Position numbers and translations under genes: made by a program
Shown here: piece by piece, positions 29,668 through 63,580 of the stretch
How the letters are laid out: each line of letters starts with the position of its first letter
Numbering within the stretch: the stretch's first letter is position 1
The notes under the pieces: model-generated
The model's input: only the letters and a program-made list of their open reading frames with translations
Database searches by the model: none
What the model was told of the DNA's origin: nothing
IMG/VR virus record: IMGVR_UViG_3300042292_001231
Coordinates: 1 to 64,000 of that record
Reading direction: 5' to 3' (one strand)
Length of the DNA stretch: 64,000 nt
Origin: a virus

Positions 29668-31851
29668 ATGAAATCAAAAGCTATATTCCTGCTCGCGTCA
29701 GCAGTAGGACTCTTTAGTTTGCCGATTGTGTCTGAGGCAGTGTTGTTCATTCAACCAACTCCTCTAAATACTGCGGTCAAACCTCCAATGACCGTCACAA
29801 TTGATGGTGTTTCACAGCTCAACGGTATCACTTCAATTACCCGTAACAATGCTGCACTGGTTCAATTAGGTAAAGCATTATTCTGGGATACTGCGGTTGG
29901 TTCTGACGGTATGGCTTGTGCTTCTTGTCACTTTGCAGCAGGTGCTGATAGTCGTACAATCAATCAAATCAATCCAGGTTTCAATCATAACAACCATACT
30001 TATGATGCTCTTCCTGGTGGAACTGTTGGTCCTAATGCTCAACTGAAAGTTAGCGATTTTCCTCTTTGGGTATTTGGTGCTCCAAATGATCCTGCCAATC
30101 CAACTAAGTTATCTGCTACTGTAGTTGATGATGTTATCAGTTCTGCTGGTACTTTGAACGGAACTTTTGTTGGAAATGATCCACTTTTAGATGGCGATAC
30201 TTGTACATCAAGAATTCTTGATGAAGCATCTGTGAATGGTATCAACGTTCGTCGTGTAGAACCTCGTAATACTCCATCTTCAATCAATGCTACATTCTAT
30301 GTCAGAAACTTCTGGGATGGTCGTGCAAACAAAGTCTTCAATGGAGCAAATCCATTTGGACTACGTGACCAAAACTCTAAAGTATGGATGACTCCAGTTG
30401 GTGGTGTTCCAACACAAGTCAAACTCGTTATTGATAATGCATCACTTGCTTCTCAAGCAGTTGGTCCTGTATTATCTGACTTGGAAATGAGCTGTGCAGG
30501 TAGAACCTTTACGACTGTTGGTACTAAGCTTGTTGGTAGAAAGATTTTGAATACCCAAACAATTAGTGCTACTGATAGTGTTTTATCAACTTTCAGAACT
30601 AACAAACCATTATACAGAACTCTTATTCAAAGAGCTTTCCAACCAGTATTCTGGACAGGTGTCAATCCATCAAACATTCCACTTGATGAAGCCAACTTTC
30701 CATTGTTCTTCGGTTTAGCAGTTCAAGCTTATGAAGATACCTTACGTTCTGGTAATTCTCCATATGATAACTTACTACGTGTAAGACAACCTATTACTGT
30801 TGCTGGTAATCCCGTTCCAGTGGGAACTGCTCCTCAGCTAATTCGTCGTCCTAATGGAACATTCATTGGTATGAACAGAAGTCAATCACGTGGTTTCGAT
30901 TTGTTCATGGGAGCAGTTAGTCCATTGAATCCGCAAGTTGGTGTTGACCCTGTAACTCTTGCTCCTATTCCACAAAAGAATGGTGCTTGTATCTTCTGTC
31001 ATAATGGTCCTGAGTTCTCATCAGCTACATTTACTGCATTAGCTCCTGCTCCAATTGGTGTCAATATAACTGACCCGAATGCAGTTCCAAATGGCTTTAT
31101 GGTTGAACCAATGCCGTTCTTACCAGGTGCAGTTGTTGCAGAAGCGGTTGTTCCAGTGTTTGACCCAGCTTTACAATTTGGTTCTTATGACTTAGGGTTC
31201 TATGATATTGGTGTGACTCCAATTGCATTTGACCGTGGTCTTGGTGGTAATGATCCTTGGGGAAATCCTCTTGCATTTTCACAACAATGGCAAAATGCTT
31301 TTGGTTTAGCTTCATGCCCAACTGACTTAGTGACTCCTGCGAATGGTGGTGCTTGTGCTCCTCCAAATACAGTTGATGTATTCAATGTTGCTACTAACTT
31401 TGTTGATGTCAATGGTGTTCCACTTGTTATGACTCCAGCTTTATCACCTGCTAGAACTGATGGTTCATTCAAAACTCCATCATTACGTAATGTTAGTTTG
31501 ACTGCTCCATACTTCCATAATGGTTCTGCTAAGAATTTGAACGAAGTGATGATGTTATATAACAATGGTGGTTTGTTCAACAATCCAAACTTACATCCTG
31601 AAATCAAGGTGCTTGGATTTGATGCAACTGACTTTACTGACATCACGAACTTTATGTTGATGCTAACTGATAATCGTGTTGCTCGTGAAGCTGCTCCGTT
31701 TGACCATCCTTCGTTGACTATTCCTAATGGTCATACTATAACAGCTAAACCAAATACCAATGATGCAGTGGATAACTTCTTAGTTCTTCCTGCAACTGGA
31801 CGTAATGGACGTGCTGCTCCGGCTACCTTTGAAACCAAGTTAGCTCCATAA
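29668..31851 (+). CDS. di-haem cytochrome c peroxidase/MauG-family protein
   Basis: 727 residues with a signal peptide ([20 protein letters not shown]). Two c-type haem motifs: CASCH at 84-88 and CIFCH at 441-445. Family signatures: [20 protein letters not shown] near 67, [22 protein letters not shown] near 198, and [18 protein letters not shown] near 605. Such proteins reduce peroxide with electrons from small cytochromes in the periplasm, or modify proteins (MauG). It would need host cytochrome c maturation. About twice the length of the shortest CcpA-type enzymes, because of loops. Followed by a strong terminator, so it is a single-gene unit. I know of no phage example. Confidence 0.88.
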
Positions 31852-38874: not shown

Positions 38875-38941
38875 AGACTCAAGATACGGAAATAAAGAAG
38901 TTAAGGATGAACCAATCTTAGTTTATTCTGTGGAGAATATC

Positions 38942-40387
38942 ATGTTGAGAAAAACTACAATGGCTGTTGCAGTCGCAATTGCAACATTAGGTATTAGTGC
39001 AGTTAGTGCTAATGAAACTTCTACTCCTACTGGCACAGTTCAACACATTGTTGAAGGTAAAGTAGTCAAAACAATTCATACATATGGTATCGGTGAGATG
39101 CCATCAGTGTATAGTCCGGTTCGTCACGTCGGTGGAACAATTCCGGAAGTCTATAACCCGTTTGATGCTAAAGGTTTGGCAAAAGTTGAATTGGATAAAA
39201 GTCACTTTTTATCCCAAAAAGTCGGTGACAAAACTACATTAGGTCTGATTGGCGAAGATGTCGAATATACGACTGAAAGCGTAGTGACTGATGCAAATGG
39301 TGTTGTTACCTGGATGGGTAACACTGTTGATGGCGATGGTGCAATTATTTCAATGGGTCCAACTGGTGATGTATTCGGTTCGATTTATACTGATGAAGAC
39401 ACCTATGCCATCGAAACTCAAGGTGATGAATCAAATCCTGAAGCTTGGTTGATTAGCCAACAAAAGTCCGGGGTTAAAATGCCAACAGTAAAAGGTGATA
39501 CTGAAGTTGCGCATAACCACACATCATTGGATGCGGTGGTTTACATAGGCGTAAAACCTGATGGCACAAAAGTATATAGAGATACTGTTACAGGCGCACT
39601 TACCTATGTTGCCCCTCCTCCTACACCTGTTGCAAATGCGCCAATAGTAATTGATTTGCTGTATGCATATAGCACTTCATTCAAACCACGAATTGATACT
39701 TATGTTGCGTCAATGACACCTGCAATGACCAAAGCATTTAGTGATAGTGGCATGCCAAATGTAGCCTTTAGAACTGTAGGTAAAATTGAAGTACCGTATG
39801 CGGATACTGAACCAACAACTGGTGTTCCATCTAAAATGCAACAAGGTTTAGGTATTTGGAAACCTGTACGAGACATGAGAGCCAGAGTTGGTGCTGACTT
39901 GGTCGTCTTTATCCGTCCATTCAAACAATCACATGTAATCTGTGGCCAAGCATTGTTGAATGGTGCAAATCAAACCGCTTTTAATGCAAATGTTGCAAAT
40001 GCTGTTGTTGATTGGGGTTCTGATGGTGGTTATGGTTGCTATGGAGATACGATGATTCATGAAGTAGGTCATATCATGGGGGTTGTTCACAATAAAGAAA
40101 CCATGGAAGAATTTGGTTTAGGTTCTGTGAAAGGTGTCTATGAAGATTCTTATGGTTATGCTCATAACTATAAGTATGGCTATGGTGGTTCAAACTGTGG
40201 AATTGCAGATATTATGAGCTATTGCTTCAATCGTAAGGCTAAGTATTCAAATCCTGATGTAATTGGTGTAACGTTGAATAATGGTACAAAACTTTACTTA
40301 GGCGTAAGAGACGTAGCAGATGCAACAAGAACTCTGAAAATTACTGCTCCAAAAATTGCAAACTTCATGCCTAAAAAAGTTCAATAA
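38942..40387 (+). CDS. secreted metzincin-type zinc metalloprotease
   Basis: 481 residues from ATG 38942 after TGGAGAAT. Signal peptide (TTMAVAVAIATLGISAVSA). The catalytic domain in the C-terminal half has HEVGHIMGVVH near 379-389, the full HExxHxxGxxH zinc motif, and a Met-turn DIMSYC near 422. An N-terminal ~200-residue prodomain-like region precedes it. Probably periplasmic or exported; substrates unknown. It is its own unit: promoter 38847 to terminator 40402. Confidence 0.85.
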   Translation: MLRKTTMAVAVAIATLGISAVSANETSTPTGTVQHIVEGKVVKTIHTYGIGEMPSVYSPVRHVGGTIPEVYNPFDAKGLAKVELDKSHFLSQKVGDKTTLGLIGEDVEYTTESVVTDANGVVTWMGNTVDGDGAIISMGPTGDVFGSIYTDEDTYAIETQGDESNPEAWLISQQKSGVKMPTVKGDTEVAHNHTSLDAVVYIGVKPDGTKVYRDTVTGALTYVAPPPTPVANAPIVIDLLYAYSTSFKPRIDTYVASMTPAMTKAFSDSGMPNVAFRTVGKIEVPYADTEPTTGVPSKMQQGLGIWKPVRDMRARVGADLVVFIRPFKQSHVICGQALLNGANQTAFNANVANAVVDWGSDGGYGCYGDTMIHEVGHIMGVVHNKETMEEFGLGSVKGVYEDSYGYAHNYKYGYGGSNCGIADIMSYCFNRKAKYSNPDVIGVTLNNGTKLYLGVRDVADATRTLKITAPKIANFMPKKVQ

Positions 40388-43532: not shown

Positions 43533-44375
43533 ATGAAATTGCAAGACCTATTGACTGAAGTACCAGCTGCTTCTAGTAAATCAGCTTTTCAACCAAATCT
43601 TAAACCTTGGATGTATCAAACTAAGGAAGAAATAGAAAAGTGGTTAAAGGATGCTAAAATTGAAGCTCAGATTTCTAAAGAACTTGAAGTTCATCCAACT
43701 CGTAAAGACCTTATATTAGGAAATTTATTTGGTAATGGACCAAAAGAATCTTTAGTTGAATATAATGGAAAGTGGTTACTTCCTGTTCAATTCAATACTG
43801 CTCCAGGAAAATTAGAAGTCAGTCATTTGGAACTCGGTTCAATGATTGGATTACCACATGTTGTATTAGGTCCTATGGTTCTATTGAATGTAGAAATTGA
43901 AGATTTTGAAGGATGTCCTAAACATATTTCAGGAACAGATTCTTCAGGGTTTTATGATATTCAAATCGACTCAAAGAAACCTATCAAGTCTTTTGTTGGA
44001 TGTCCGCCAGTACAATCTATGGATGTTAGCGATATCATTGGATTAGATGGGCTTCCTAATACTTTGACATGGTTACGAATTGGAAAGTTTTCAGACATTA
44101 CCGCAATTTTGAAAAAATGTCCAAATCTTAAAACCCTTGGCATAGGTAATATTGAAATTGGTAAAGACAATATCCAACCATTAAGTGTATTCAAATCGAA
44201 AAAGATTACTAGATTTAATATCTATCCGATAGATTTATCTACAGAGATACCACCTGAATATAAACTAGCTAATACTATTATCAACAAACATTTGAAGTCA
44301 GAAGAAAGAAGTATGATTGCTTGTCAACGAGAATTGATTGAAAATGATTTAGATGAAAGCGGATGGGCTGAGTAG
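43533..44375 (+). CDS. outlying member of the CQRELIE paralog family
   Basis: 280 residues, the largest member. N-terminus MKLQDLLTEVPA fits the capsid-targeting-like pattern with a possible LTE cleavage site. Middle: repeated leucine-rich-like units (IEDFEGCPKHISG, SFVGCPPVQ, LDGLPNTLTWLRI). C-terminus IACQRELIENDLDESGWAE has lost the EYAEF end, consistent with no gene starting there. Lies alone between a lipoprotein and gp15. Confidence 0.75.
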   Translation: MKLQDLLTEVPAASSKSAFQPNLKPWMYQTKEEIEKWLKDAKIEAQISKELEVHPTRKDLILGNLFGNGPKESLVEYNGKWLLPVQFNTAPGKLEVSHLELGSMIGLPHVVLGPMVLLNVEIEDFEGCPKHISGTDSSGFYDIQIDSKKPIKSFVGCPPVQSMDVSDIIGLDGLPNTLTWLRIGKFSDITAILKKCPNLKTLGIGNIEIGKDNIQPLSVFKSKKITRFNIYPIDLSTEIPPEYKLANTIINKHLKSEERSMIACQRELIENDLDESGWAE

Positions 44376-47443: not shown

Positions 47444-47818
47444 ATGAGACGAGTGGTAAGAAATTCGTTGTTAGTAACTGCTGCTTTATCTGCATTAGTA
47501 TTAACTACTGATGTAATGGCATCAAAGCATGATAAAAATCGTCATGATAAAAATCATCATGATAACAATCGTCATGATGAACATAATGAACAAATTTTCA
47601 AACAACCATTTGCAGGTAATACTCAAATCCAAACAAACAATGGCAATAACAATGGTGGCAATTTGCAAACCGGTGGAAATGGTGGTGGTAATAACGGTGT
47701 AGGTAATGGAAATGGTGGCCCAATTGTTCCGTCAGTTCCGGTGCCAGGTGCAGTATGGTTATTTGGTTCTGCATTAGTTGGGTTTGTAACAATTTCAAGG
47801 AATCGCAAGTCTAAGTAA
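47444..47818 (+). CDS. His-rich PEP-CTERM-type sorted protein
   Basis: 124 residues from ATG 47444 after GAGGAGTAAAG. Signal peptide (SLLVTAALSALVLTTDVMA), then a His/Asp/Asn repeat (HDKNRHDKNHHDNNRHDEHN) likely to bind metal, an Asn/Gly-rich linker, and a tail VPSVPVPGAVWLFGSALVGF followed by basic RNRKSK. The tail is the VP.PGA.WLFGS.L.G variant of PEP-CTERM, which host exosortase cuts to send proteins to the surface. Three promoters precede it. Confidence 0.82.
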   Translation: MRRVVRNSLLVTAALSALVLTTDVMASKHDKNRHDKNHHDNNRHDEHNEQIFKQPFAGNTQIQTNNGNNNGGNLQTGGNGGGNNGVGNGNGGPIVPSVPVPGAVWLFGSALVGFVTISRNRKSK

Positions 47819-51069: not shown

Positions 51070-51768
51070 ATGAGTTCGTTATCGATGGATAAGTTTAGAG
51101 AATTGTTTTTAGGTCAATTTGAGCCTGACTATTCTCAATCATACTTTGGAGACAGTGAACCGAATGTCAGTAAGATGACATTTTCCTCAGGGATGAGGAT
51201 TTCTGTCAAAACAATGTATGATAATTATGTGGGTACCGCTTTTAATAATTGGCAATATAATGTTCCATCAAGAGTTCAACAAAAACAACTTATAACATTT
51301 GAAAAAGTTCGTGGTAATATTGATTCCTGTATTCCAGATAGTCAGAAGAACGAGTTTTATCGATTACTTTCTTCCGTGGATGGCGATGTGATTGTTGAAG
51401 GAAATCTAACTTCTTTTGAAGGCATTCCAAAGAAAATCAATGGAAGATTAGATTTATCAAGATGTCAATCATTACATTCTTTATCTGGCATTGATAAGTA
51501 CTTTGGTAAAGATGGCTTTATTGCTGAACGATTACCTTTACCAAGTACTCTTGGATATGCAATTCTTGGAGTACTAAAAATACCAAAACTAATAGGAATT
51601 AGTTTCAATGATGAATTTGGTGTATCTGAAGTTGGCACTCCTAATGAACGAGTAAATGCTTTACGAACTCTGTCAGATATTGTCAATAGTCATATGAAAT
51701 CAAAAGATGTAATTACGTGTCAACGTGAACTTATTGAAAACGATTTTGACGAGTATGCTACTTTTTAG
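51070..51768 (+). CDS. outlying member of the CQRELIE paralog family
   Basis: 232 residues (ATG 51085 would give MDKFRELFLGQ, closer to the family start). Leucine-rich-like units (LTSFEGIPKKINGRLDLSRC, LHSLSGIDKYFG), the family core AILGVLKIPKLIGI, and C-terminus VITCQRELIENDFDEYATF. Convergent with the gp13-like gene. Confidence 0.75.
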   Translation: MSSLSMDKFRELFLGQFEPDYSQSYFGDSEPNVSKMTFSSGMRISVKTMYDNYVGTAFNNWQYNVPSRVQQKQLITFEKVRGNIDSCIPDSQKNEFYRLLSSVDGDVIVEGNLTSFEGIPKKINGRLDLSRCQSLHSLSGIDKYFGKDGFIAERLPLPSTLGYAILGVLKIPKLIGISFNDEFGVSEVGTPNERVNALRTLSDIVNSHMKSKDVITCQRELIENDFDEYATF

Positions 51769-53381: not shown

Positions 53382-54566
53382 ATGAAAATATTTGAACTCT
53401 TTTCTTCTACTAATAAAGTTATTATAGAAGAAGATAATTTCTTTGAACTTCTATTTGAAGATTTGAAGAATCTTTCTTTCATTGAACCTGATTTACTAAA
53501 GGTTCTAAAAACTTCACTTGAATATGAAAGAGGACGATATTATGGCGGAAGCGTTAATTATTCTCGTACTACTAAACATAAGTTCCCGTCGTTCTTAGGA
53601 CAATATGCAAAGATAGATGAAGTTCCAAACGCTAAAAGTGCAGCTGAACTGCATCGTCTAATTAAAGATGATGAAACTGTCAAGGGCGTAGTAATACTAT
53701 TTGATGATAGACAAGTGCTATCGCTTTTGAAACTTCCACCTCATCCTGGACATGACAACAAAGAACTTTACATTTGGGCATGTTCTTGGCAAAACTTTTT
53801 CAAAGATGACCATGATTTGATGAATCAATCTTCTGAAATTATGGCTGCCTTCAAGAAAGCGGAACTTGAAGACCTCAAAACATCTGAAGGTTCAGAAGGA
53901 AAACTATATAAAGCACTTATTGCATTAATGAAAGGTCAAAAAGAAATTTATGGTAAAACAGGTTCAATCAAAGTAAAAGTTATCAGAAGCGATGAAGAAC
54001 GAACTGCCCTAAATGCTCGACGCAAAAAAGCTCGTGAGATTGATGCTAAGTATGCTCATTTAATAACTCCGCCTAAAGAAGATTTATCTACTGAAAAAGG
54101 TATGAGAAATTGGATAAGCATGATGAAAGCTAAGTTGAACGCTCGTTTAGATACTTACAAAGAACATAAAGCTCCAGCAGCAGATACTCCAGAAGAATTT
54201 CTTGACTTAATAAAGAATGAAGGGTTCTTGGACAAAATCAAAATTAATGGTCTTCCGTACATATTGAAGTACAACCGTTTAGACTTTGATTACCTTCGTG
54301 CTAAACAAGTTGCTGAACATAATCGTAGTCACATTGAATACCAGTTAGACTCACAGAGTAATGAGTATCATAACTATTGGAAAGCATTAAGTGAATATCG
54401 CAAAAATATTAGAAACGAATACCCTAATGATGAAGAAGCTTTAGAAGTTGCAATGGAAAAGTTTAGGGTTCCTTCCGCAATTAAAGTTTATATGAAACTT
54501 GACAAATCTTCAATCGTGGTCGATTCAATCAACATTGAGAGCTTCAATAAATGGAATGCCAAATAA
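53382..54566 (+). CDS. hypothetical protein, capsid-targeting-like start
   Basis: 394 residues. N-terminus MKIFELFSSTNK recalls T4 Alt (MELITELFDE). Largely helical and charged; no recognised enzyme motif. It opens the rightward cluster and overlaps the next gene by 16 nt. It might be a large packaged protein upstream of the paralog array (inference). Confidence 0.65.
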   Translation: MKIFELFSSTNKVIIEEDNFFELLFEDLKNLSFIEPDLLKVLKTSLEYERGRYYGGSVNYSRTTKHKFPSFLGQYAKIDEVPNAKSAAELHRLIKDDETVKGVVILFDDRQVLSLLKLPPHPGHDNKELYIWACSWQNFFKDDHDLMNQSSEIMAAFKKAELEDLKTSEGSEGKLYKALIALMKGQKEIYGKTGSIKVKVIRSDEERTALNARRKKAREIDAKYAHLITPPKEDLSTEKGMRNWISMMKAKLNARLDTYKEHKAPAADTPEEFLDLIKNEGFLDKIKINGLPYILKYNRLDFDYLRAKQVAEHNRSHIEYQLDSQSNEYHNYWKALSEYRKNIRNEYPNDEEALEVAMEKFRVPSAIKVYMKLDKSSIVVDSINIESFNKWNAK

Positions 54567-54763
54567 CAATTTCTGGTTACGAACCCTTCCTGTTCATGCC
54601 TGGTATGACCATTGAAGCAGCTATTCGTTATAAGAATAAGTACATTCATGGCGAAATCTTGAAGCAGCTAATGGACAAGTTCAATGAAGTCAATGGCTTA
54701 CGAGTTCCTAAAGCAGGTGAAAGCTTTTTGATTCCTGTAATGGAGGAAGGGCCAGGTGTCTAA
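54551..54763 (+). CDS. small protein, LysM-like ending
   Basis: 70 residues. EILKQLMDKFNEVNGLRVPK then AGESFLIPV resembles the end of a LysM or tail-X type peptidoglycan-binding unit; weak. Overlaps both neighbours. Lies just before the array. Confidence 0.5.
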   Translation: MECQITISGYEPFLFMPGMTIEAAIRYKNKYIHGEILKQLMDKFNEVNGLRVPKAGESFLIPVMEEGPGV

Positions 54764-55394
54764 TACTTTCAAACAATACTTACTAAAAGAAGAACGCGAA
54801 TCGACTTTCTATACTAAGAAGTCTCAAATCAATGCTTGGATGAAAGCTCATGGCATTGGTCAGGGGAATTATGAAATTCATAAAGATATGAGTATCACAT
54901 GTCATTGGAGTTTATCAATTTCTGGAAGTGATTTGGTCTGGTACAAAGGGAAGCAGTGTGTATTGCCAATCAACTTTAGAGAATGTACTAAAGATGTTCA
55001 TGTATTAGCAAATGATATGATTGACTTGAAAGGGGTACCAAAATTTGTGGGTGGACAGTTCAATGTAAAGGGTAAGAACATTACTTCAGTTGAATACTTA
55101 CCTGAAGAAGCTGAAGATATCTATCTGCATAATACAGGTATTATCAATTTCAAAGGTATTGAAAAAGTGGTCAAAAAAGTCTATTCAATTTCAATACCTG
55201 AAGAAACTAAAGGGTTACTAAGCTTTGTTAAGATACAAAACCTAATGAAGGTTTCGCCATTATCAACTGCTTCTGACGAACTAAAGGAAGCATGCAAAAT
55301 TGTAACTAAATATTGTGAAGCAAATCGACATGATGCTATTGCTTGTCAACGTAAACTTATTGAAAGCGACTTGGACGAATATGCAGAGTTTTAA
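54756..55394 (+). CDS. CQRELIE family member 1 of the tandem array
   Basis: 212 residues from GTG 54756 after TGGAGGAAG. Start SNTFKQYLLKEE, leucine-rich-like unit (DLKGVPKFVGGQFNVKGKNI), core GLLSFVKIQNLMKV, end IACQRKLIESDLDEYAEF. Its final codons contain ATG 55381 of the next gene (14-nt overlap). Confidence 0.78.
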   Translation: MSNTFKQYLLKEERESTFYTKKSQINAWMKAHGIGQGNYEIHKDMSITCHWSLSISGSDLVWYKGKQCVLPINFRECTKDVHVLANDMIDLKGVPKFVGGQFNVKGKNITSVEYLPEEAEDIYLHNTGIINFKGIEKVVKKVYSISIPEETKGLLSFVKIQNLMKVSPLSTASDELKEACKIVTKYCEANRHDAIACQRKLIESDLDEYAEF

Positions 55395-56052
55395 AGAATA
55401 CTTACAAGAAGTAGAAACTGATTCAAATATTCAACTTGGGATGTTTGTTGAAACTAAAGTCAAAATTGAATATTCTCCATATTCTTTAGAATCTGAGCTT
55501 AAAAATTTGATAATAAAAGTAGCAAAAAAGAAAGGTTATGATATTTCAAGTTATCTCAGTACTACTTATGGAATTGATTTGAAGTTTAAGATAACAAAAC
55601 AAATCCAGTGTCAAGCAGAAACTATTCAAAAGTTACGTGATACTATTAGTTCAACTGTGAATGAGTTTTTTACGACTAAGATTTCACCTGAATTACAAGT
55701 AAAATTTTCTACAGCTGAGTTATCTTGTTTTGGATTTCCAAATTTTAAGCTAAGTATAAATGATGGTAACATTTCATATTGGTGTGAAGAAGGTCAATCG
55801 ATTTCTAACTTAGATAAAGTTATTCTAAAGTGTGATGAGTTCAGACTTTATAAAGCAAATATGATAAAAGGGGGAATACTTAGTTTGCTCAAACTAAAAA
55901 TGCCAGTCAATATTATTGGCGCAGGTCCTTTTGGAAGTAATAGCCCACGATGGTATTCAATTGTCAATCCTTATTTGCAAGGCAATAGAAATGCTATTGC
56001 TTGCCAACGAGAACTCATTGAAAAAGACTTAGACGAATATGCGGAGTTTTAA
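55381..56052 (+). CDS. CQRELIE family member 2
   Basis: 223 residues from ATG 55381. MQSFKEYLQE start, different middle (no leucine-rich units; contains SISNLDKVILKCDEF), core GILSLLKLKMPVNI, end IACQRELIEKDLDEYAEF. 14-nt overlap on both sides. Confidence 0.8.
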   Translation: MQSFKEYLQEVETDSNIQLGMFVETKVKIEYSPYSLESELKNLIIKVAKKKGYDISSYLSTTYGIDLKFKITKQIQCQAETIQKLRDTISSTVNEFFTTKISPELQVKFSTAELSCFGFPNFKLSINDGNISYWCEEGQSISNLDKVILKCDEFRLYKANMIKGGILSLLKLKMPVNIIGAGPFGSNSPRWYSIVNPYLQGNRNAIACQRELIEKDLDEYAEF

Positions 56053-56725
56053 AGAATACTTAGCAGAAGGCAATGATCATTGGGTAGAACCAATTCGCCC
56101 ATTGCTTCTTCAAATAAAAGTACGTGGAGATGATTACATTTCTCCAAAGTATAATAGAGAACAGCTTTTTCAGCGAAACAATATAATTATTCGTGAATTA
56201 TCTGAACTCTGTGAAAAAGCAAATCTTCCTAAAGTAAAAGAAGTCTATCATTTTGGAGTTGATAGAGTAACGTTTCATTTAGTTCTTGAACCCCATACTC
56301 ATTATACTAAACCGCAACTTGATACTATAGCAACAAAGTTTATCAAGTTAGCAGATAAGTATGAAATTTATAAGAATGACTTTGAACCAGTATCTTCTGA
56401 AATGCCAGTAGTTATCTTAGAAGATAACTTTGATAAAACGACTACAGTTGAAGTCAATCACGTTATCATTGAAGAAAGTGTCAAATCCTTACAAGATATA
56501 CATAAAGTCATATTATCTGCTAAACAGATTTCTATGGGTGACTCTTCTAATATAACACAAAATGTATTAGGATTACTAAAGATAAAGAATGCTATAACAT
56601 TATATGCTTCAGCTAAAGTTCAATGGTTTAACATTGTAAAGGAATATTTCGATACAGGAAAAGACTTTATAGCTTGCCAACGAAAACTAATTGAACTTGA
56701 CTTGGACGATTATGCAGAGCTTTAA
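56039..56725 (+). CDS. CQRELIE family member 3
   Basis: 228 residues. MRSFKEYLAEG start (LAE/G suits a gp21-type cut). Second middle type with SLQDIHKVILSAKQI, core NVLGLLKIKNAITL, end IACQRKLIELDLDDYAEL. Confidence 0.8.
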   Translation: MRSFKEYLAEGNDHWVEPIRPLLLQIKVRGDDYISPKYNREQLFQRNNIIIRELSELCEKANLPKVKEVYHFGVDRVTFHLVLEPHTHYTKPQLDTIATKFIKLADKYEIYKNDFEPVSSEMPVVILEDNFDKTTTVEVNHVIIEESVKSLQDIHKVILSAKQISMGDSSNITQNVLGLLKIKNAITLYASAKVQWFNIVKEYFDTGKDFIACQRKLIELDLDDYAEL

Positions 56726-57380
56726 GCAATACTTATCTGAAGCTTCTAATCCGGATGATAAACAAATCCGTGAAATGATTGGAAAGTATAAGAGTGGAGA
56801 ACTTGGCAGATGTAGGTTTCCGAATAAATTTCCACGACATGCAGTTAAGAATGGAAAAATCTATTTGAAGAAACCTTTAATTATTGAGCATTGCATGTTT
56901 GATGACAATGATGAATTACTATTTCCAATTGCAGAAGCTCTTCGATTAGTAATATGGAATGTTCCTAAGACGTTCAAGAACTTTCCTGAAATAGTTGGCG
57001 AAGGTGGTATTGAATTTTCTACAGGTAACCAAATACAATCTCTTGATGGATTTCCATCAGATATTAGTAATAGACTTGATACATCAAGAATTAGAAACTT
57101 TGATTTTACAAATTTCAATAAGTATGTCAAAAGACTTGATGGATGGTTAATAACTAGTGCTTTATATGAAGGGCCCTTATTATCATTACTAAAAATTAGA
57201 GACTTGAAGCATGTAGGATTTATTGACCACCATTCTGGTAAATCTCAAGATGAAGTAAAAATTAAAGTGAATTTAAGAAATGCTTGTAATATTATCAACA
57301 AATATTTACCACTTGGAAATTTTATTGAATGCCAACGAGAACTTATTGAAAACGACCTGGACGAATACGCAGAACTATGA
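56712..57380 (+). CDS. CQRELIE family member 4
   Basis: 222 residues from ATG 56712. MQSFKQYLSEAS start (LSE/A). Leucine-rich-like middle (IQSLDGFPSDISNRLDTSRI), core PLLSLLKIRDLKHV, end IECQRELIENDLDEYAEL. Overlaps the next start by 4 nt rather than 14. Confidence 0.8.
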   Translation: MQSFKQYLSEASNPDDKQIREMIGKYKSGELGRCRFPNKFPRHAVKNGKIYLKKPLIIEHCMFDDNDELLFPIAEALRLVIWNVPKTFKNFPEIVGEGGIEFSTGNQIQSLDGFPSDISNRLDTSRIRNFDFTNFNKYVKRLDGWLITSALYEGPLLSLLKIRDLKHVGFIDHHSGKSQDEVKIKVNLRNACNIINKYLPLGNFIECQRELIENDLDEYAEL

Positions 57381-58054
57381 AAATCTCTGAACTACTAACT
57401 GAAGAAACTGCCGAAGATAAAGCTGTACGACTCGAAATAAATGCGATTCGTAAAGGTAAGTATGCATCACATCCGATGCCAGTCAGCTTTGGGAAATTTA
57501 GCGTTGTTAATAGTATGGTATCAATTGATGGACGTTGGAACTTAAAGAATACTCTTATTCCTAAAGATGGACCTGATGCCGGTAAGCTAACTTTCAAAAT
57601 GATAAAGTGTGGTCAGATTGAATTGGGTGCCAATAGATTATCATCATTTGAAGGATTTCCACCAGATGTATCATTCACCGGCGATAAGATGTATGGAAGA
57701 ACTGCTATCGTGACTACCTGTGCGCATCCACTTCTAACAAAGTTAGATGGCATTTCAAAACGAATTGATGGAAACCTTGGATTAGGCTTGTGTCATAATC
57801 TTGATTGGTCTAATGCTCACAAACATTTTGAATACATAGATGGCACTTTAACAATTTCTAATCAATGGAAAGGTGGTGTCTTATGGGCATTAAAGATTCC
57901 AAAACTTCAAGCTTTGTTTTTTGGCCAATGTTCAAGCGAACACCGAGATGTTCAAGTAATTATTAGCAAATACTTAAGGTCAGAGTCAAAAGATATTGTA
58001 GCTTGTCAACGTGAACTTATCGAAAAGGATTTAGACGAATATGCAGAGTTTTAA
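57377..58054 (+). CDS. CQRELIE family member 5
   Basis: 225 residues. MKISELLTEE start (Alt-like form). Leucine-rich-like middle (LSSFEGFPPDVS, LTKLDGISKRIDGNLGLGLC), core GVLWALKIPKLQAL, end VACQRELIEKDLDEYAEF. Confidence 0.8.
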   Translation: MKISELLTEETAEDKAVRLEINAIRKGKYASHPMPVSFGKFSVVNSMVSIDGRWNLKNTLIPKDGPDAGKLTFKMIKCGQIELGANRLSSFEGFPPDVSFTGDKMYGRTAIVTTCAHPLLTKLDGISKRIDGNLGLGLCHNLDWSNAHKHFEYIDGTLTISNQWKGGVLWALKIPKLQALFFGQCSSEHRDVQVIISKYLRSESKDIVACQRELIEKDLDEYAEF

Positions 58055-58745
58055 AGAATTCTTATTGAAAGAAGAAATTATTAATCATGAACTTCCCACT
58101 AACGCGTACATTGATATTAGCACTGGTATCTTTACGTCTGAGGTTGAGCAATGGATTACTGACGGTGATGGTGACGATAATCCACATATTACTTTCGAAA
58201 AATGGATAACATCTCATCTTCAAGATTACTTTGGACATAATGAAGTTGAAGCTTTTTTCGGAGCTGATGAAATGCTTATTACATATGAACTAGATGAGAC
58301 TAACTTACATGCTAATCATGTTAGAGAAATACGTAAAAAATGCACTGAAATAGTTGATGAGCTTTTAGGAACCGATATATTTCACCGTGATGAAGACAAT
58401 ACATACATATCTTTTAGAGAACAACTTGGTCCAAATGTTTATACTGATTGGCCATATATCGAATTTTACTTAGATCATTCTCCTTCAATATCTCTAAAAG
58501 ATATTCATAAGAAAATGCCTCATTGCAAAAAAATTATTTTCTATAATGCGATTAATAAAATAAATTCTAATGTATTAGGATTATTAAAGTTAAAAGAATT
58601 GAAGCATATTACAATTTGGCCACGTTCTCAAAAGATACCTCCTTGGTATGAAATTGTAATGAAACATTTCGACGCCGATAAAAACTTCATCGCGTGTCAA
58701 CGTGAACTAATTGAAAAAGATTTAGACGAGTATGCGGAGTTATAA
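58041..58745 (+). CDS. CQRELIE family member 6
   Basis: 234 residues. MQSFKEFLLKEE start. Second middle type with SISLKDIHKKMPHCKK, core NVLGLLKLKELKHI, end IACQRELIEKDLDEYAEL. 14-nt overlap with both neighbours. Confidence 0.8.
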   Translation: MQSFKEFLLKEEIINHELPTNAYIDISTGIFTSEVEQWITDGDGDDNPHITFEKWITSHLQDYFGHNEVEAFFGADEMLITYELDETNLHANHVREIRKKCTEIVDELLGTDIFHRDEDNTYISFREQLGPNVYTDWPYIEFYLDHSPSISLKDIHKKMPHCKKIIFYNAINKINSNVLGLLKLKELKHITIWPRSQKIPPWYEIVMKHFDADKNFIACQRELIEKDLDEYAEL

Positions 58746-59394
58746 CATGTCAAATGGCGCACAAAGAATTACCTATTATGTTTATTGTAAGGTTCCCGGT
58801 AACCTACCAAATTCTTCATTACCCTCGACTTCAGAAACAATAGAAAATGCAATCGGCAATCTGTTACATAATCAATTTGAGAATAGAATAGTTTCTATAG
58901 AATACCGAGATAAAGAATTTGCTTTTAAAGTACCAATCACAAATGCAACTGAAGGTAGTACAGAAGGTATTAGTGCTTTTGACAAAAAACTGCTTGGTCT
59001 GCTAAATAACTATTACAAAGATATTATTACTAAACCCTTGAAGTTAAAAGAACAGTTTGTAAGTATCTTTAATATCATACCCCCATTTAAAATTGAGCAT
59101 CCTAAGGTGGCTCTTAACTTTACAGTAAATGGTGGTGCTGAAGTATCTTTACATGATATTCATAAAGCTATAAATCCTAAAGATTTGGCTTTATACGTAA
59201 GTGCCGCGGTTAAAGTCACTGGGCAAGTATTAGGATTGTTGAAAATGACAAATCTTCAAAATCTTGAATGGGCAATGAGTAATGAACCAGAATGGTTTAA
59301 GATTGTTCATAGACATTTTGAAAATAATAACGATATTATTGAATGCCAACGCGAACTTATTATAAAGGATTTAGACGAGTATGCAGAGCTTTAA
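58732..59394 (+). CDS. CQRELIE family member 7, start altered
   Basis: 220 residues from the conserved overlap ATG 58732 (MRSYNMSNGAQ) or from ATG 58747. The FKEYL part is lost, unlike its sisters, so packaging may be lost. Middle SLHDIHKAINPKDL, core QVLGLLKMTNLQNL, end IECQRELIIKDLDEYAEL. Confidence 0.75.
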   Translation: MRSYNMSNGAQRITYYVYCKVPGNLPNSSLPSTSETIENAIGNLLHNQFENRIVSIEYRDKEFAFKVPITNATEGSTEGISAFDKKLLGLLNNYYKDIITKPLKLKEQFVSIFNIIPPFKIEHPKVALNFTVNGGAEVSLHDIHKAINPKDLALYVSAAVKVTGQVLGLLKMTNLQNLEWAMSNEPEWFKIVHRHFENNNDIIECQRELIIKDLDEYAEL

Positions 59395-60049
59395 ACAATA
59401 CTTACTAAAAGAAAATGAATCTCCATTTGTTTTCCCATGGCTTGTCTTAGAACTAGAGAACAAAGAAACTTTTGGCGAAGCTATGGGAAATCATAGAAAT
59501 CGCGATGCTTTTGATAATGAAGTTGAAAAGTTTGTCAACGATCTTAAAAGTCATTTAGGTATGAAAGATATTGATTGGGGTTTCAATAGAGATGACAATC
59601 TACAAGTTGAAATTAAACTAAGCAATCGACATTATGTACAAGATGAGTTAGAAGAAATAGCGACTGAAGCAGCGAATTTTTCTAATCGTGAGCTAAGCGG
59701 TGGATTGACACTAGATGAAGTCAATCCAAGTGTATGGTTCTTTGGTCCGGTCAATCCTAATACTATCATACATTATCCAGTCATAGTATTTGATTTGAAA
59801 CGTAATAAAAGTATCTCACTTAGCAACTTTGACAAACATTTCCCTGATACTCAAGTGTTCAGGTTTGAACATATAGTAGGAGAAGTCACTAACGTGTTGA
59901 GTATGTTGAAGATAAAATCATTACATTCAGTATTAGGAAAAAATGAACACTGGATTGAAATACTAAATAAATATGCAAAATCCCATGACACTATTGCTGC
60001 CCAACGCGAACTAATTGAAAACGACCTGGACGAATATGCAGAATTTTAA
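59381..60049 (+). CDS. CQRELIE family member 8
   Basis: 222 residues. MQSFKQYLLKEN start, second middle type with SISLSNFDKHFPDTQV, core NVLSMLKIKSLHSV, end IAAQRELIENDLDEYAEF, with Ala in place of the conserved Cys. Confidence 0.8.
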   Translation: MQSFKQYLLKENESPFVFPWLVLELENKETFGEAMGNHRNRDAFDNEVEKFVNDLKSHLGMKDIDWGFNRDDNLQVEIKLSNRHYVQDELEEIATEAANFSNRELSGGLTLDEVNPSVWFFGPVNPNTIIHYPVIVFDLKRNKSISLSNFDKHFPDTQVFRFEHIVGEVTNVLSMLKIKSLHSVLGKNEHWIEILNKYAKSHDTIAAQRELIENDLDEYAEF

Positions 60050-60830
60050 GAACTTTATTGCTGAAGCTAAGCAAACGAACTTGGCACCTTGGCACCCAAC
60101 AACTCCAGAAGCAACTAAGGAAGTACTTCATGAGTTTTATCTTGAACATTATGGAAATAAATATTTGCCAACTACATTCGTATTCCTAAAGAATGGAAGT
60201 ATTTCTGTTCGAGGAGAGCAATTCTTCGCTATTCGTGAAATCGGACCTGTTGATAATGGTGAAGTTGGACTACTTGTAAAGTATAACAATATCAATTGCC
60301 CAGGTAGAGTTAGTATAAAAGATTTCAATACTAGGAAATTGACTACATTAGAATATGGACCTAATAAAGTCGGAATGAGTTTAAACATACAACTTTCACA
60401 AATTACTTCATTCAAAGGATTTGCATGTGAAGTTAAAGAGGCATTGATATTGACCGATTGTCTAAAGTTGAAAGAATGGGGTCAAGGATGTCAAATTACA
60501 TGTCATAGATTAGTGCTTGACTACGAATTTGACTATGAATTGTTTAGAACTATCGGACAACATTTCAAAATAGTAAATAACATAACATTGTCTAATGCCG
60601 CAGCAAAAACTTTAGTTGGAAAAGGATTACTTAGTATATTCAAAATTAAAAAGCCTACACGAAATATGTTTGGTATTCAACTTTACTTTTCTGATAAAAC
60701 TAAAGTAAACGAAGAATTAGTTGAAGCAACTAGAATAGTCAATACATACTTAGCGTCAAACAACCCTGATATTATTGGATGCCAACGTAAACTAATAGAA
60801 AACGACTTGGACGAATATGCAGAGTTTTAA
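60036..60830 (+). CDS. CQRELIE family member 9
   Basis: 264 residues from ATG 60036. MQNFKNFIAEAK is very close to the T4 IPIII targeting start (MKTYQEFIAEA). NLAPWHPTTPEA follows, as in members 11 and 13. Core GLLSIFKIKKPTRN, end IGCQRKLIENDLDEYAEF. Confidence 0.8.
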   Translation: MQNFKNFIAEAKQTNLAPWHPTTPEATKEVLHEFYLEHYGNKYLPTTFVFLKNGSISVRGEQFFAIREIGPVDNGEVGLLVKYNNINCPGRVSIKDFNTRKLTTLEYGPNKVGMSLNIQLSQITSFKGFACEVKEALILTDCLKLKEWGQGCQITCHRLVLDYEFDYELFRTIGQHFKIVNNITLSNAAAKTLVGKGLLSIFKIKKPTRNMFGIQLYFSDKTKVNEELVEATRIVNTYLASNNPDIIGCQRKLIENDLDEYAEF

Positions 60831-61461
60831 AGAATACTTATTAGAAAGTGCTGGACACTTACCAATTGTCAATGTACAAATTGACTTTGCTGGTCCTATT
60901 TCTGTCGGCAAACGTAAAACTCTAGTATTCCTAATTACAAAATTTATCAAGGAAGAATACAACCTTTCTAATACAATAGAGTTCACTTCTATTTTTGATT
61001 CAATAATTGTCAAAATACACGATGTTCCGCAACATCTTTTTGAAACTGTTGATTTCTTAGGTGATATACATGACATAGTTACTGACCACTTTGAACCTGT
61101 TGACGCTTACAGTCATATTGAATGTCATTGGCCACCTGCTTTCAAGATGGTCATTCAAAATCATTTGACTACTATCTATACTAACCAAGAGTCTGTTAAA
61201 GGTATCGAAAAACTAATAGAAGGTTCAAGTGCATTTCAATTGGACATTCGTTTTGAAGCACCGGCTAAATCAATTGGAATACTATCGCTTCTAAAAGTAA
61301 AAGGTTTTGATAGCATCATGATAAATGGTCCAGATGAATTACTTAGCGACCTTAAAATTGTTAATGACATTTTACATAAATACTATAATGGGAGTAAAGA
61401 TACTATTGGCTTTCAACGAGAACTAATTGAACGTGACTTAGACGAATATGCAGAATTTTAA
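60817..61461 (+). CDS. CQRELIE family member 10
   Basis: 214 residues. MQSFKEYLLESAG start, second middle type, core GILSLLKVKGFDSI, end IGFQRELIERDLDEYAEF, with Phe at the Cys position. Confidence 0.8.
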   Translation: MQSFKEYLLESAGHLPIVNVQIDFAGPISVGKRKTLVFLITKFIKEEYNLSNTIEFTSIFDSIIVKIHDVPQHLFETVDFLGDIHDIVTDHFEPVDAYSHIECHWPPAFKMVIQNHLTTIYTNQESVKGIEKLIEGSSAFQLDIRFEAPAKSIGILSLLKVKGFDSIMINGPDELLSDLKIVNDILHKYYNGSKDTIGFQRELIERDLDEYAEF

Positions 61462-62185
61462 ATCTTATCTTGCTGAAAAGTTAGCAACCAATTTTGCCCC
61501 TTGGCATATTACTGACCCTGAGAAAGTTCAGTACTATATGAAAAATTATGCTAATATGTCTGGATGGAAAGTGAATAAAGACGGAACTGTATCTGTCACT
61601 AAGTCGGACTATTCGCCTAATGGGGTATATGGCGACATTGGCGGATACGGTCATGGTGAAACTGCACTCATGGTAAAGTACAGAACTGCTAAGAAGTTTG
61701 AAATAAATGTTGCAGATGGTTCAAATTTCAAATCACTTTGGGGAATTCCTGATGCATGCGACCAATTGAATATAAGTGTTCCGTCATTAGAAACATTAGA
61801 ACATTGTACTCCAGTTATCAAAGATTCGTTATATCTCTATACTCCTAACTTGAAAAGTTTTGATTGTGGAAAAGTTTCGATTGCACAAGAACTAAAAATT
61901 GGAAGTATTGGGAAAGCACCGCTTAGAGATTTACACAAACATTTTGCAGTTCCACAAATTCGTTTCTATAACACCGCTCTACACCTAATCAAACAAAAAC
62001 CGCTGTTATCATTGTTGAAATGTAATGCTAAATTGACATGGGGTTCAATTATGACAATTAATGGAACGTCTCTAACTGAAGTAGTAGAAGTGTTAAAAAT
62101 ACTAAATAAGTATAATAGTTCTAGTATTATACAATGTCAGCGAGAACTTATCGAAAAAGACCTAGACGAATATGCGGAGTTTTAA
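61448..62185 (+). CDS. CQRELIE family member 11
   Basis: 245 residues. MQNFKSYLAEKLATNFAPW start, middle with LETLEHCTPVIKDSLYLYTP, core PLLSLLKCNAKLTW, end IQCQRELIEKDLDEYAEF. The next start shares only 1 nt. Confidence 0.8.
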   Translation: MQNFKSYLAEKLATNFAPWHITDPEKVQYYMKNYANMSGWKVNKDGTVSVTKSDYSPNGVYGDIGGYGHGETALMVKYRTAKKFEINVADGSNFKSLWGIPDACDQLNISVPSLETLEHCTPVIKDSLYLYTPNLKSFDCGKVSIAQELKIGSIGKAPLRDLHKHFAVPQIRFYNTALHLIKQKPLLSLLKCNAKLTWGSIMTINGTSLTEVVEVLKILNKYNSSSIIQCQRELIEKDLDEYAEF

Positions 62186-62844
62186 TGAAAATAAAAGAAC
62201 TATTTGAGAATGAATTACCGATGACGACACAAGGCAGAGTTAGTAGTGGAACATATGTTGTAGACCTTTCTCTTGAAAATCTTCCATCAGAAAATCTTAG
62301 ACAAAGGATAGTCAAAAACATCAAGTTTGTCTATCCTCAAGCTGAAGTTCATATTGATAAAGAAGCTATTTTGACTAAAATACCAAAGATTGTGGCATCT
62401 TATATTCATGAACTACCGGATATACATGATGACATTATTCAAACAGTTGAAGAAACAGTTAATGATTTTAATAATAAAGATGAAGATCCTATTGCTCATG
62501 GTCAATCAGAATTAGTTTTCGATGGTGTTCCATCATTCAAAGTTATTACTGAAAGAGTAACTATCAATTGTCAAGAAAATTCCATTGGTCTTACCGGGTT
62601 AGACAAGCTCATAGGACCAGAAGTTCAAGAACTATTCATTAACGATATTCAAAAGCTGAAAGGTCATATCTTGTCATTATGCAAAATACCTATGAGCGTT
62701 GATATGTATCTCTATTCAAGATCGTCTGGAGATTTACATCATAAGATTGACGAAATGCTGATAAAGCATCGTCCTACACAGGATGTCATTGGTTTTCAAC
62801 GTGAACTTATCGAAAAGGATTTAGACGAATATGCAGAGTTTTAA
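62185..62844 (+). CDS. CQRELIE family member 12
   Basis: 219 residues from ATG 62185 (the frame upstream belongs to the previous gene). MKIKELFENELP start (Alt-like). Second middle type with SIGLTGLDKLIGPEVQ, core HILSLCKIPMSVDM, end IGFQRELIEKDLDEYAEF. Confidence 0.78.
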   Translation: MKIKELFENELPMTTQGRVSSGTYVVDLSLENLPSENLRQRIVKNIKFVYPQAEVHIDKEAILTKIPKIVASYIHELPDIHDDIIQTVEETVNDFNNKDEDPIAHGQSELVFDGVPSFKVITERVTINCQENSIGLTGLDKLIGPEVQELFINDIQKLKGHILSLCKIPMSVDMYLYSRSSGDLHHKIDEMLIKHRPTQDVIGFQRELIEKDLDEYAEF

Positions 62845-63580
62845 AACATATCTAGCAGAAGCATCTGCCAAAAACCTTGCTCCATGGCAAGACCCGTCTA
62901 ATCCAGCATATGTTAATGTCAATGTAAGTGATTACTTTAGAGGAAGTGTAAAGAGGAATAAGAATGGTACTTATTCAACTTCTGCGCCTCATGGATATTT
63001 TATTTCGTGTCTAAAGTTAGATAATGGTAAGCAATACGTACTACCTGTCAAGTTTTCAATTATGAGTTACTTTGAAACTATTTCCGGTGTTGAAAATGGT
63101 CTTACTACTCTTCAAGGTTGTCCTGATACAATAAGACATGAAATGGTTATTGACTCAAAGAACTTAACCACCTTAGATTATCTTTATACTCAAGTACATT
63201 GGAAGCTCAGCATTCAATGTCCTAATCTCAAAACATTTGGAGATGCAAAAACAAAATGTCTTGACTTAGTTCTATATGACATTGGTGATGTTCCTCTCAA
63301 AGAGGTTCAATATCACGTTGAAGTAATTCATACTATCTATCTTGGATTTGATGCTGCCTATAAAAAACCTGTCTTATCAATATTCAAAATCAAAGGACAT
63401 TGGGTTTCAATAGAACAAAGAACCAGTTTTGACCAATGGAAGTCAGACCCAGATGGTTCTAAAGCTAAAGAATTTGATTTAGTATGCAAAATACTAAGCA
63501 AGTATGCTAAATCTCGAAACGCCATTGCGTGCCAACGCGAACTAATTGAAAATGACTTGGATGAATACGCAGAGTTCTAA
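62831..63580 (+). CDS. CQRELIE family member 13, last of the array
   Basis: 249 residues. MQSFKTYLAEASAKNLAPW start (LAE/A). Leucine-rich-like middle (LTTLQGCPDTIRHEMVIDSK), core PVLSIFKIKGHWVS, end IACQRELIENDLDEYAEF. The overlap ATG at its 3' end leads nowhere: the array stops and a minus-strand gene converges. Confidence 0.8.
   Translation: MQSFKTYLAEASAKNLAPWQDPSNPAYVNVNVSDYFRGSVKRNKNGTYSTSAPHGYFISCLKLDNGKQYVLPVKFSIMSYFETISGVENGLTTLQGCPDTIRHEMVIDSKNLTTLDYLYTQVHWKLSIQCPNLKTFGDAKTKCLDLVLYDIGDVPLKEVQYHVEVIHTIYLGFDAAYKKPVLSIFKIKGHWVSIEQRTSFDQWKSDPDGSKAKEFDLVCKILSKYAKSRNAIACQRELIENDLDEYAEF

Follow-up and report, generated by a model that had tools for sequence, protein, structure and literature searches.

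What might a phage do with 13 paralogous genes set in tandem, most of them sharing DNA at their junctions? The question is raised by positions 54756-63580 of the IMG/VR virus record IMGVR_UViG_3300042292_001231, of which we analysed positions 1 to 64,000 (the window, 64,000 nucleotides (nt), to which gene coordinates refer). The window belongs to an environmental phage contig of 85,877 bases. An original prediction, made from the letters alone, had described this array (array 1) and two further copies in the window, and had read them as a modular, expandable protein arsenal. We propose, with a probability of roughly three in four, that the products of the array are internal head proteins, targeted to the capsid, of a large T4-type myovirus. 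It is the N-terminal leader of these proteins that points to the virion head, and their packaging there is as probable as the proposal itself. That they are injected as a functional arsenal is about an even bet, injection and anti-host function being the weaker parts of the proposal.

The 13 genes of array 1 and the two singletons are all intact, forming uninterrupted open reading frames (ORFs) of 212-280 amino acids (aa) (Table 1). The expected tail signature closes each of them (15/15), at times in altered form (..DLDESGWAE at 43533; ..DFDEYATF at 51070), and the expected (I/V)L(S/G)LLKIK core recurs in variants across their alignment. The general layout seen in alignments is a leader, then a variable middle, then a domain of ~75 residues at the C-terminus, or cap, with the near-invariant tail at its end. 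The middles do fall into two types. The IS(L)xDIHK motif, previously taken as the mark of a type of its own, is instead the last repeat before the cap in both (alignments, by eye); the types differ upstream of it, one having leucine-rich repeats (LRRs) and the other a domain with a ferredoxin-like order.

Nested junctions had been claimed for most sites, and 10 of the 12 internal junctions of array 1 are indeed 14-nt start/stop overlaps, or 9 of 12 if the second ATG at 58747 is the true start of array gene 7. In these overlaps the same DNA encodes YAEF-stop or YAEL-stop and the next start, MQSFK, MQNFK or MRSFK (MRSYN at 58732); the remaining two junctions are of 4 nt (57377) and 1 nt (62185). 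The overlap is therefore real. The idea that it locks both protein ends in place holds only in part, since 10 of the 13 junctions of a second array (array 2, described below) are of 1 or 4 nt, yet keep the same tails, and since the last gene of array 1 retains DEYAEF in DNA (TACGCA) without an overlapping ATG. The overlap does not cause the conserved ends. Nineteen loci from 11 other IMG/VR contigs, whose samples may share one site, match this contig along their full length at 99.99-100% identity, and 15 of them touch the arrays. An assembly artefact is thus unlikely, and the array is confirmed as genuine, neither a chance pattern nor a probable product of assembly.

Array 1 has the extent that was first ascribed to it; the family, by contrast, does not end at the window edge. 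Just beyond it, at contig positions 67251-77185, array 2 holds 14 members, with a terminase-small-subunit-like gene on one side and the large terminase gene on the other, so that the 86-kb contig carries 29 members in two arrays and two singletons. A further contig, G001, overlaps this one and joins another, G002, through 18,855 identical bases. G001 adds three members in the head module and G002 two elsewhere, giving 34 in the population of the window contig (phage A). Two more on L013/L014, from partly the same metagenomes and with the same tail though no shown overlap, bring the count to 36. Contigs were grouped by metagenome and tail into about 11 populations, lettered A to K, of which E may be several phages. 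Their fetched stretches contain 134 distinct members: F 40, A 36, E 16, D 12, B 9, G 8, I 4, C 3, J 3, H 2 and K 1, the counts for B, C and E-K being lower bounds taken from those stretches only. Phage F has its 40 on one 360-kb contig, 34 of them within 26.5 kb that include a 4.6-kb break and a 0.8-kb gap. The 342-kb contig of phage H gave eight matches to a hidden Markov model (HMM), some of them pieces of one gene, and two were counted as members; both contigs may be incomplete. Phage B (metagenome 3300046485) is known from four contigs of 4.7-17 kb only, and one of its members is split into two ORFs with stops between (L149:12338-13100). Copy number thus varies among relatives, where a fixed number would have told against the original prediction.

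The leaders of these proteins resemble the propeptides of T4 head proteins. A first class (MQSFKEYLAE) stands in the same register as the T4 ipII/ipIII start, MKTYQEFIAE followed by A; a second (MKIKELFE, MKISELLNE, MKINELFTE) resembles the starts of T4 gp24, MAKINELLRE, and Alt, MELITELFDE. According to excerpts of one account of T4, ten residues of IPIII are enough for packaging, with positions 4 and 7 critical for targeting and 8 and 10 for processing, and the prohead protease cuts after L/I-x-E (PMC9026906). Excerpts of another call the propeptides of gp24, the internal proteins (IPs) and Alt capsid targeting sequences, or CTS (PMC5694885). Within the M[QRK][SN][FY] leader class (n=16, 13 from phage A), whose definition fixes an aromatic residue at position 4, position 7 holds one too in 16/16, position 8 is I or L in 15/16, and an L/I-x-E ends at residue 10 or 11 in 15/16. 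Across phage A, judged from sequence only, such a site ends at residues 7-16 in 31 of the 36 members.

A strict leader grammar, set on T4 ipII/ipIII, matched six of 81 T4 proteins (ipII, ipIII, gp24, Alt, e.6 and gp2) and missed ipI. Among non-overlapping ORFs of at least 100 aa from selected loci, to which all our leader tallies against other ORFs are confined, it matched 71/117 family ORFs and 16/289 others (odds ratio 26, p 3e-32). Several of those 16 look truly tagged by eye, so the background may be lower. An earlier, looser pattern had matched 54/83 family ORFs versus 14/196 others, and at most 6 in 500 shuffles. By population, strict leaders were found in A 24/36, B 5/9, C 0/3, D 9/12, E 5/16, F 24/40, G 7/8, H 0/2, I 1/4, J 2/3 and K 1/1. 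A T4-like N-terminal targeting propeptide register is hence apparent for the family, if not for each member. The major capsid proteins of phages A and F themselves start MELFENW and MKELFENW.

Phage A also encodes an S77 prohead protease, on G001 (PF03420, E 5.9e-25; PHROG 207 head maturation protease, E 5.6e-54), and one is present in phage F as well. In G001 the portal gene (PHROG 213, E 1e-94) is followed by the S77 protease gene and an ORF whose start is leader-like; next come three family members and two short ORFs that by eye also begin in leader-like fashion, then the gene of a gp22-like protein and that of the major capsid protein (PHROG 138, E 9e-94). The gp22-like protein is so labelled by position, its match PHROG 10922 carrying no function. 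The corresponding T4 order is portal, gp67, gp68, gp21, gp22, gp23. Family members adjoin packaging, head-closure or neck genes in phages A, B and C: on one phage B contig they come after a terminase-small-subunit-like gene, on another they come before the large terminase gene, and in phage C three lie 5' of head-closure and terminase genes.

The three members between the protease and the scaffold-like gene would also suit structural fillers, that is, prohead scaffold or core blocks that determine the dimensions or form of a large head, and whose diversity makes a mosaic core rather than a set of effectors. IPIII is reported to help head assembly in the excerpts of PMC9026906, the bodies are acidic and under purifying selection, and one common cap and tail could be a core-packing interface. 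We nevertheless hold this to be the case with only about the chance of a coin landing heads twice running. Bodies within one phage are nearly unrelated, beyond what packing seems to need; copy number ranges from 40 on the 360-kb contig to eight HMM matches on the 342-kb one; and the same leader stands on an apparent kinase.

That apparent kinase is encoded in phage D by an ORF sharing 4 nt with the end of a member; its product begins with MKVHELFEE and matches the phage protein kinase family PHROG 15752 (E 2e-15), whose description we take to fit T7 gp0.7. Leader-like starts are also seen, under the looser pattern alone, in HD-domain proteins (Pfam HD) of phages A and B and, by eye, in a phosphoribosyltransferase-like ORF of phage B (below the Pfam cut-off). 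A leader on such unrelated proteins fits the look of a portable packaging tag. The context bears equally on whether the genes form an anti-defence or takeover cluster acting inside the cell and outside the virion, their leader then doing something else, for example directing proteins to membranes or condensates. Bodies of the LRR and ferredoxin-like kinds are typical of binders, and large phages hold many such clusters. The leader, however, matches T4 head propeptides in a phage with the matching protease, and members sit among late packaging, neck and head genes in three phages, so we regard a cluster of that kind as improbable.

Three other observations concern head genes. Three ORFs of phage D (L102:5893-9541), starting MITFKQFLTE, MITFKQFLLE and MMTFKQFLLE, fit the strict grammar and are further candidates for capsid-tagged cargo; they lie 3' of head-closure-like and terminase-small-subunit-like ORFs (by eye), and the two that were scanned had no PHROG match. 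On the reverse strand of L066 (4363-9379), head-module proteins share a second motif (LFEIAGIK, MKIAGIT), possibly another core-binding element, whose C-terminal form in the gp22-like protein is FLKRIAGITS. Phage A also has a second, short S77-type protease ORF of ~140 aa (G002:74880-75221, or L024:632-1054; PF03420, E 1.6e-8, above cut-off), reminiscent of the diverged paralog of the protease that excerpts of PMC5694885 report for phage SPN3US.

The bodies were modelled with AlphaFold2 from own-family alignments, one member per type. The LRR-type member, L001:12592 of array 2, is predicted to form an LRR solenoid, with block values of the predicted local distance difference test (pLDDT) of 84-98 in the stretch from residue 191; its N-terminal half was poorly modelled. 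The model aligned with SDS22 (8u5g_B) at Z 10.1 and a root-mean-square deviation (rmsd) of 3.4 over 121 residues, and with 50 PDB chains at Z of at least 8, the listed rows being nearly all LRR proteins by title. Structure prediction thereby supports the leucine-rich-like units of the original prediction and an LRR solenoid fold for bodies of this type. The second model, of array gene 8, has a beta-alpha-beta-beta-alpha-beta N-domain, then an LRR-like end and the same cap. Its N-domain scored at best Z 7.7 (rmsd 2.5, 84 residues aligned; 5xam_A), with a de novo ferredoxin (6nuk_B) at Z 7.2; because Z below 8 may mean merely a common arrangement, the name ferredoxin-like is tentative. A phage SAM lyase, at Z 7.0-7.1, stood level with unrelated folds. 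Leader residues 1-10 have block means of 42 (L001:12592) and 62 (gene 8), below the well-folded parts, and in the gene 8 model values drop under 50 only at residues 11-14, around the end of the putative protease site. Low values in the leader are as expected of a detachable tag.

LRRs bind surfaces and the genes lie near tail genes (sheath, tube), which could suggest tail-fibre, whisker or capsid-surface adhesins with LRR domains. We give this the slightest chance of all the readings considered: nothing like a collagen-like, beta-helix or trimerisation region stood out in the alignments or models, which were viewed without a dedicated search, and the leader points to the prohead interior.

Database searches placed the family in no known group. 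Pfam (15 window members and 18 others), PHROGs (5 window members and 18 others), and NCBIfam and PADLOC (15 window members) gave only weak or scattered matches, the best being phrog_21719 (function unknown, E 8e-6, 2/18, LRR part) and LRR_4 (E 0.001). The PDB sequence search returned nothing below E 0.09 and Foldseek against PDB no match at E 0.001 or better; the viral matches of Foldseek (A0A8D4GM51, GM21, GLZ7, GP65) are apparently proteins of one virus, from neighbouring accessions. With tblastn, eight members matched named phages mainly in their LRR parts or not at all, and the family C-domain was not found in named phages at that sensitivity. On two named records, the HMM of alignment A6 matched LRR positions only, none past position 122 of 195. 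A scan of a bacterial and archaeal genome collection gave 69 pattern matches, none of them a relative, and the open-access publications among the matches listed held no description of this family. Apart from weak LRR-type matches, the single known family that would have countered the original prediction did not appear.

The tails are specific to each phage. Seven phage B members are reciprocal best middle matches of phage A members, four of them unambiguously (scores 516, 335, 334 and 224 vs second best 118, 184, 83 and 112) and three ambiguously (283 vs 252, 124 vs 108, 109 vs 91), and paralog middles within one phage score 55 on average, against 109-516 for these seven pairs. Leaving out one phage B fragment of 78 aa, 7/8 B members match best in A by their middles, whereas 0/8 do so by their tails, and the nearest neighbour of a tail comes from its own phage in 44/44 tails. 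Among members with a full-length tail, A has R where B has K (32/32, 8/8), I where B has Y or F (32/32; seven Y and one F) and E where B has D (31/32, 8/8).

Gene conversion alone was considered as the cause of the uniform tails and rejected, as synonymous codons at identical tail residues agree just somewhat above the expectation from codon usage (observed/expected: A 0.628/0.520, F 0.434/0.409, B 0.679/0.645, D 0.665/0.551). The excess allows some conversion, not a recent homogenisation of everything. Selection to match a phage-specific partner and old gene conversion are the simplest readings, and the data do not fully separate them. A second protease site in the tail was likewise dropped as a general mechanism, because the L/I-x-E found there in A (33/36) and D (9/12) is not conserved among phages (B 0/9, F 8/40, E 5/16); T4 Alt, and probably gp21 too, undergo C-terminal processing according to the excerpts of PMC9026906.

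More tentatively, and with the odds against it, the array may be an injected arsenal with two addresses, in which the N-terminal tag would be a general capsid address and the C-terminal tail a phage-specific second address or key. The tail would have to fit a partner within its own prohead (the scaffold, the capsid propeptide, the protease or another member's cap), so tails within one phage would change together. Bodies would be swapped as cassettes between and within arrays, and each virion would deliver, all at once, dozens of different binders of LRR or ferredoxin-like make. Some movement of this kind is suggested by phage B, where the ortholog of array 1 gene 61448 is flanked by the ortholog of L001:12592 and by the member nearest to L001:8596 (an ambiguous assignment, 283 vs 252), the three sitting just 5' of the large terminase gene. 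With an array 1 ortholog among array 2 orthologs, cassettes appear to shift between arrays and to be reordered.

In the seven A-B ortholog pairs, nonsynonymous differences (pN 0.36-0.49) are below synonymous ones (pS 0.62-0.70) in 7/7, so the genes are kept as proteins; untranslated members, which would have spoken against the original prediction, did not come to light, and the tested pairs are under purifying selection. This bears on whether the array is a neutral or selfish amplification of little function, spread by recombination between near-identical junctions. The junctions are good recombination substrates and one phage B member is broken; all 15 window ORFs are intact, however, selection is purifying in every pair, and the tail protein is conserved while its synonymous codons vary, which makes such amplification very improbable. 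The description as modular and expandable holds, given the same leader and cap, varied bodies, varying copy number, a moved cassette and a permuted order; that the whole is an arsenal we infer.

As internal head proteins, the members would work in the following way. An N-terminal tag of ~8-12 residues, equivalent to the T4 CTS, would dock the protein into the prohead core and would usually bear an L/I-x-E site for cleavage by the S77 (gp21-type) prohead protease. Behind it would follow a variable binding body, of leucine-rich repeats or probably a ferredoxin-like domain, and a common LRR cap at the C-terminus, with tails that match one another inside a given phage. Recombination between the near-identical junctions, each a tail plus the next leader, would let arrays expand and reshuffle, and the different proteins carried inside the head would be delivered into the host along with the DNA.

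Several findings weigh against this reading. Strict leaders are present in only 78/134 members, and some members are without any leader (58732; L068:7769). The grammar was composed after viewing T4 and family leaders, leaving the T4 gp24 and Alt matches as the only blind ones, and a relaxed L/I/V/F/M-x-E near the N-terminus is also common by chance (68/196 control vs 65/83 family ORFs). The S77 protease was not found on the searched contigs of D and E, which are fragments, and was below cut-off in C. Mature bodies in phage A are mostly acidic (median isoelectric point (pI) 5.9; 13/36 above 7), T4 IPs being basic (ipII pI 9.6, ipIII 9.7, ipI 7.9; Alt not computed); a small basic body, which phage A does not show, is nonetheless a trait of T4 IPs and not one of the targeting system itself. 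Neither a target nor an enzyme activity was found for the members, and dN/dS below 1 gives no sign of an arms race in the seven ortholog pairs.

Should packaging be borne out, head cargo would take up ~19 kb of array DNA even counting just the 86-kb contig, with many more different internal proteins than in T4. Why T4-type heads carry protein cargo, and how fast it diversifies, would become testable. The leader would offer a sequence rule for candidate injected effectors in uncultured phages, the apparent kinase and HD enzymes included, and a C-terminal packaging partner would have to be sought. The phage-specific tail is in itself an unusual case of many paralogs altering one short segment together.

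Table 1. Family members and the gene adjoining array 1 in the window
Feature	Position	Strand	Leader or N-terminus	Body type	Remarks
Singleton member, 280 aa	43533..44375	+	MKLQDLLTE		Tail CQRELIENDLDESGWAE; clear ortholog in phage B
Singleton member, 232 aa	51070..51768	+	Unclear		Tail CQRELIENDFDEYATF
Non-family protein just 5' of array 1	53382..54566	+	MKIFELFSS..IIE		Leader-like by loose pattern only
Array gene 1	54756..55394	+	MSNTFKQYLLKE	LRR (by eye)	GTG start
Array gene 2	55381..56052	+	MQSFKEYLQE	Second, ferredoxin-like (alignment)	
Array gene 3	56039..56725	+	MRSFKEYLAE	Second (alignment)	
Array gene 4	56712..57380	+	MQSFKQYLSE	LRR (by eye)	
Array gene 5	57377..58054	+	MKISELLTE	LRR (by eye)	4-nt junction
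Array gene 6	58041..58745	+	MQSFKEFLLKE	Second (alignment)	
Array gene 7	58732..59394	+	Lost (MRSYN)	Second (alignment)	Possible start 58747
Array gene 8	59381..60049	+	MQSFKQYLLKE	Second	AlphaFold2 model, pLDDT 80.7
Array gene 9	60036..60830	+	MQNFKNFIAE	LRR (by eye)	
Array gene 10	60817..61461	+	MQSFKEYLLE	Second (alignment)	
Array gene 11	61448..62185	+	MQNFKSYLAE	LRR (by eye)	Phage B ortholog near terminase large subunit gene
Array gene 12	62185..62844	+	MKIKELFE	Second (alignment)	1-nt junction
Array gene 13 (last)	62831..63580	+	MQSFKTYLAE	LRR (by eye)	No gene starts within its end

The non-family protein just 5' of array 1 has an apparent positional counterpart in phage B (L149:15389-16726), which starts MKISELFE. 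Elsewhere in the window, 29668-31851 encodes a di-haem cytochrome c peroxidase (CCP_MauG, E 2e-21), which we consider unusual for a phage and for which a close-match scan of the genome collection gave no relative. A Reprolysin-like (M12B) metallopeptidase with a signal-peptide-like start by eye lies at 38930-40387 (E 2e-10), and a small, secreted-looking glycine/asparagine-rich protein at 47444-47818. The end of the latter, VPVPGAVWLFGSALVGFVTISRNRKSK, presumably resembles PEP-CTERM-type sorting tails and may hint at the host. There are 19 tRNA genes between 1467 and 29450.

Among known systems, the closest in likeness are IPI, IPII, IPIII and Alt of T4, together with gp24, another head protein that has a short propeptide; they share with the array proteins a short propeptide in the same register with an L/I-x-E site, an S77 protease in the same phage and diverse bodies behind a conserved tag. 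Excerpts of PMC3012670 describe the T-even internal proteins as a highly diverse set of defence proteins in which only the CTS is conserved. T4, however, has few internal proteins, at separate sites, whereas phage A has 34-36 paralogs, the two tandem arrays accounting for 27; the bodies of T4 IPs are small and basic, in contrast to LRR or ferredoxin-like bodies that are mostly acidic and end in a common C-terminal cap. No sequence homology was seen, the HMM of alignment A6 giving 0 matches in the T4 record. Head paralog family B of Salmonella phage SPN3US, with 20 members (gp83, 138-154, 161, 237) according to excerpts of PMC5694885, is alike in being a large run of head-protein paralogs of unknown function whose copy number varies between phages. 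Its gp138-154 (17 of the 20 members) gave a best E of 0.99 with the family C-domain HMM, too weak to suggest homology, and by eye are without an array-type leader or tail. LRR proteins with a C-terminal cap (SDS22, ANP32, internalins) share the predicted fold of the LRR type, which tells nothing of a target; the phage repeats differ in being short and irregular, with weak Pfam LRR_4 scores. By mechanism, then, the array would belong to a known kind, CTS-tagged and protease-trimmed internal head cargo, and what would be new is the family, its fold, its scale and the shared phage-specific cap.

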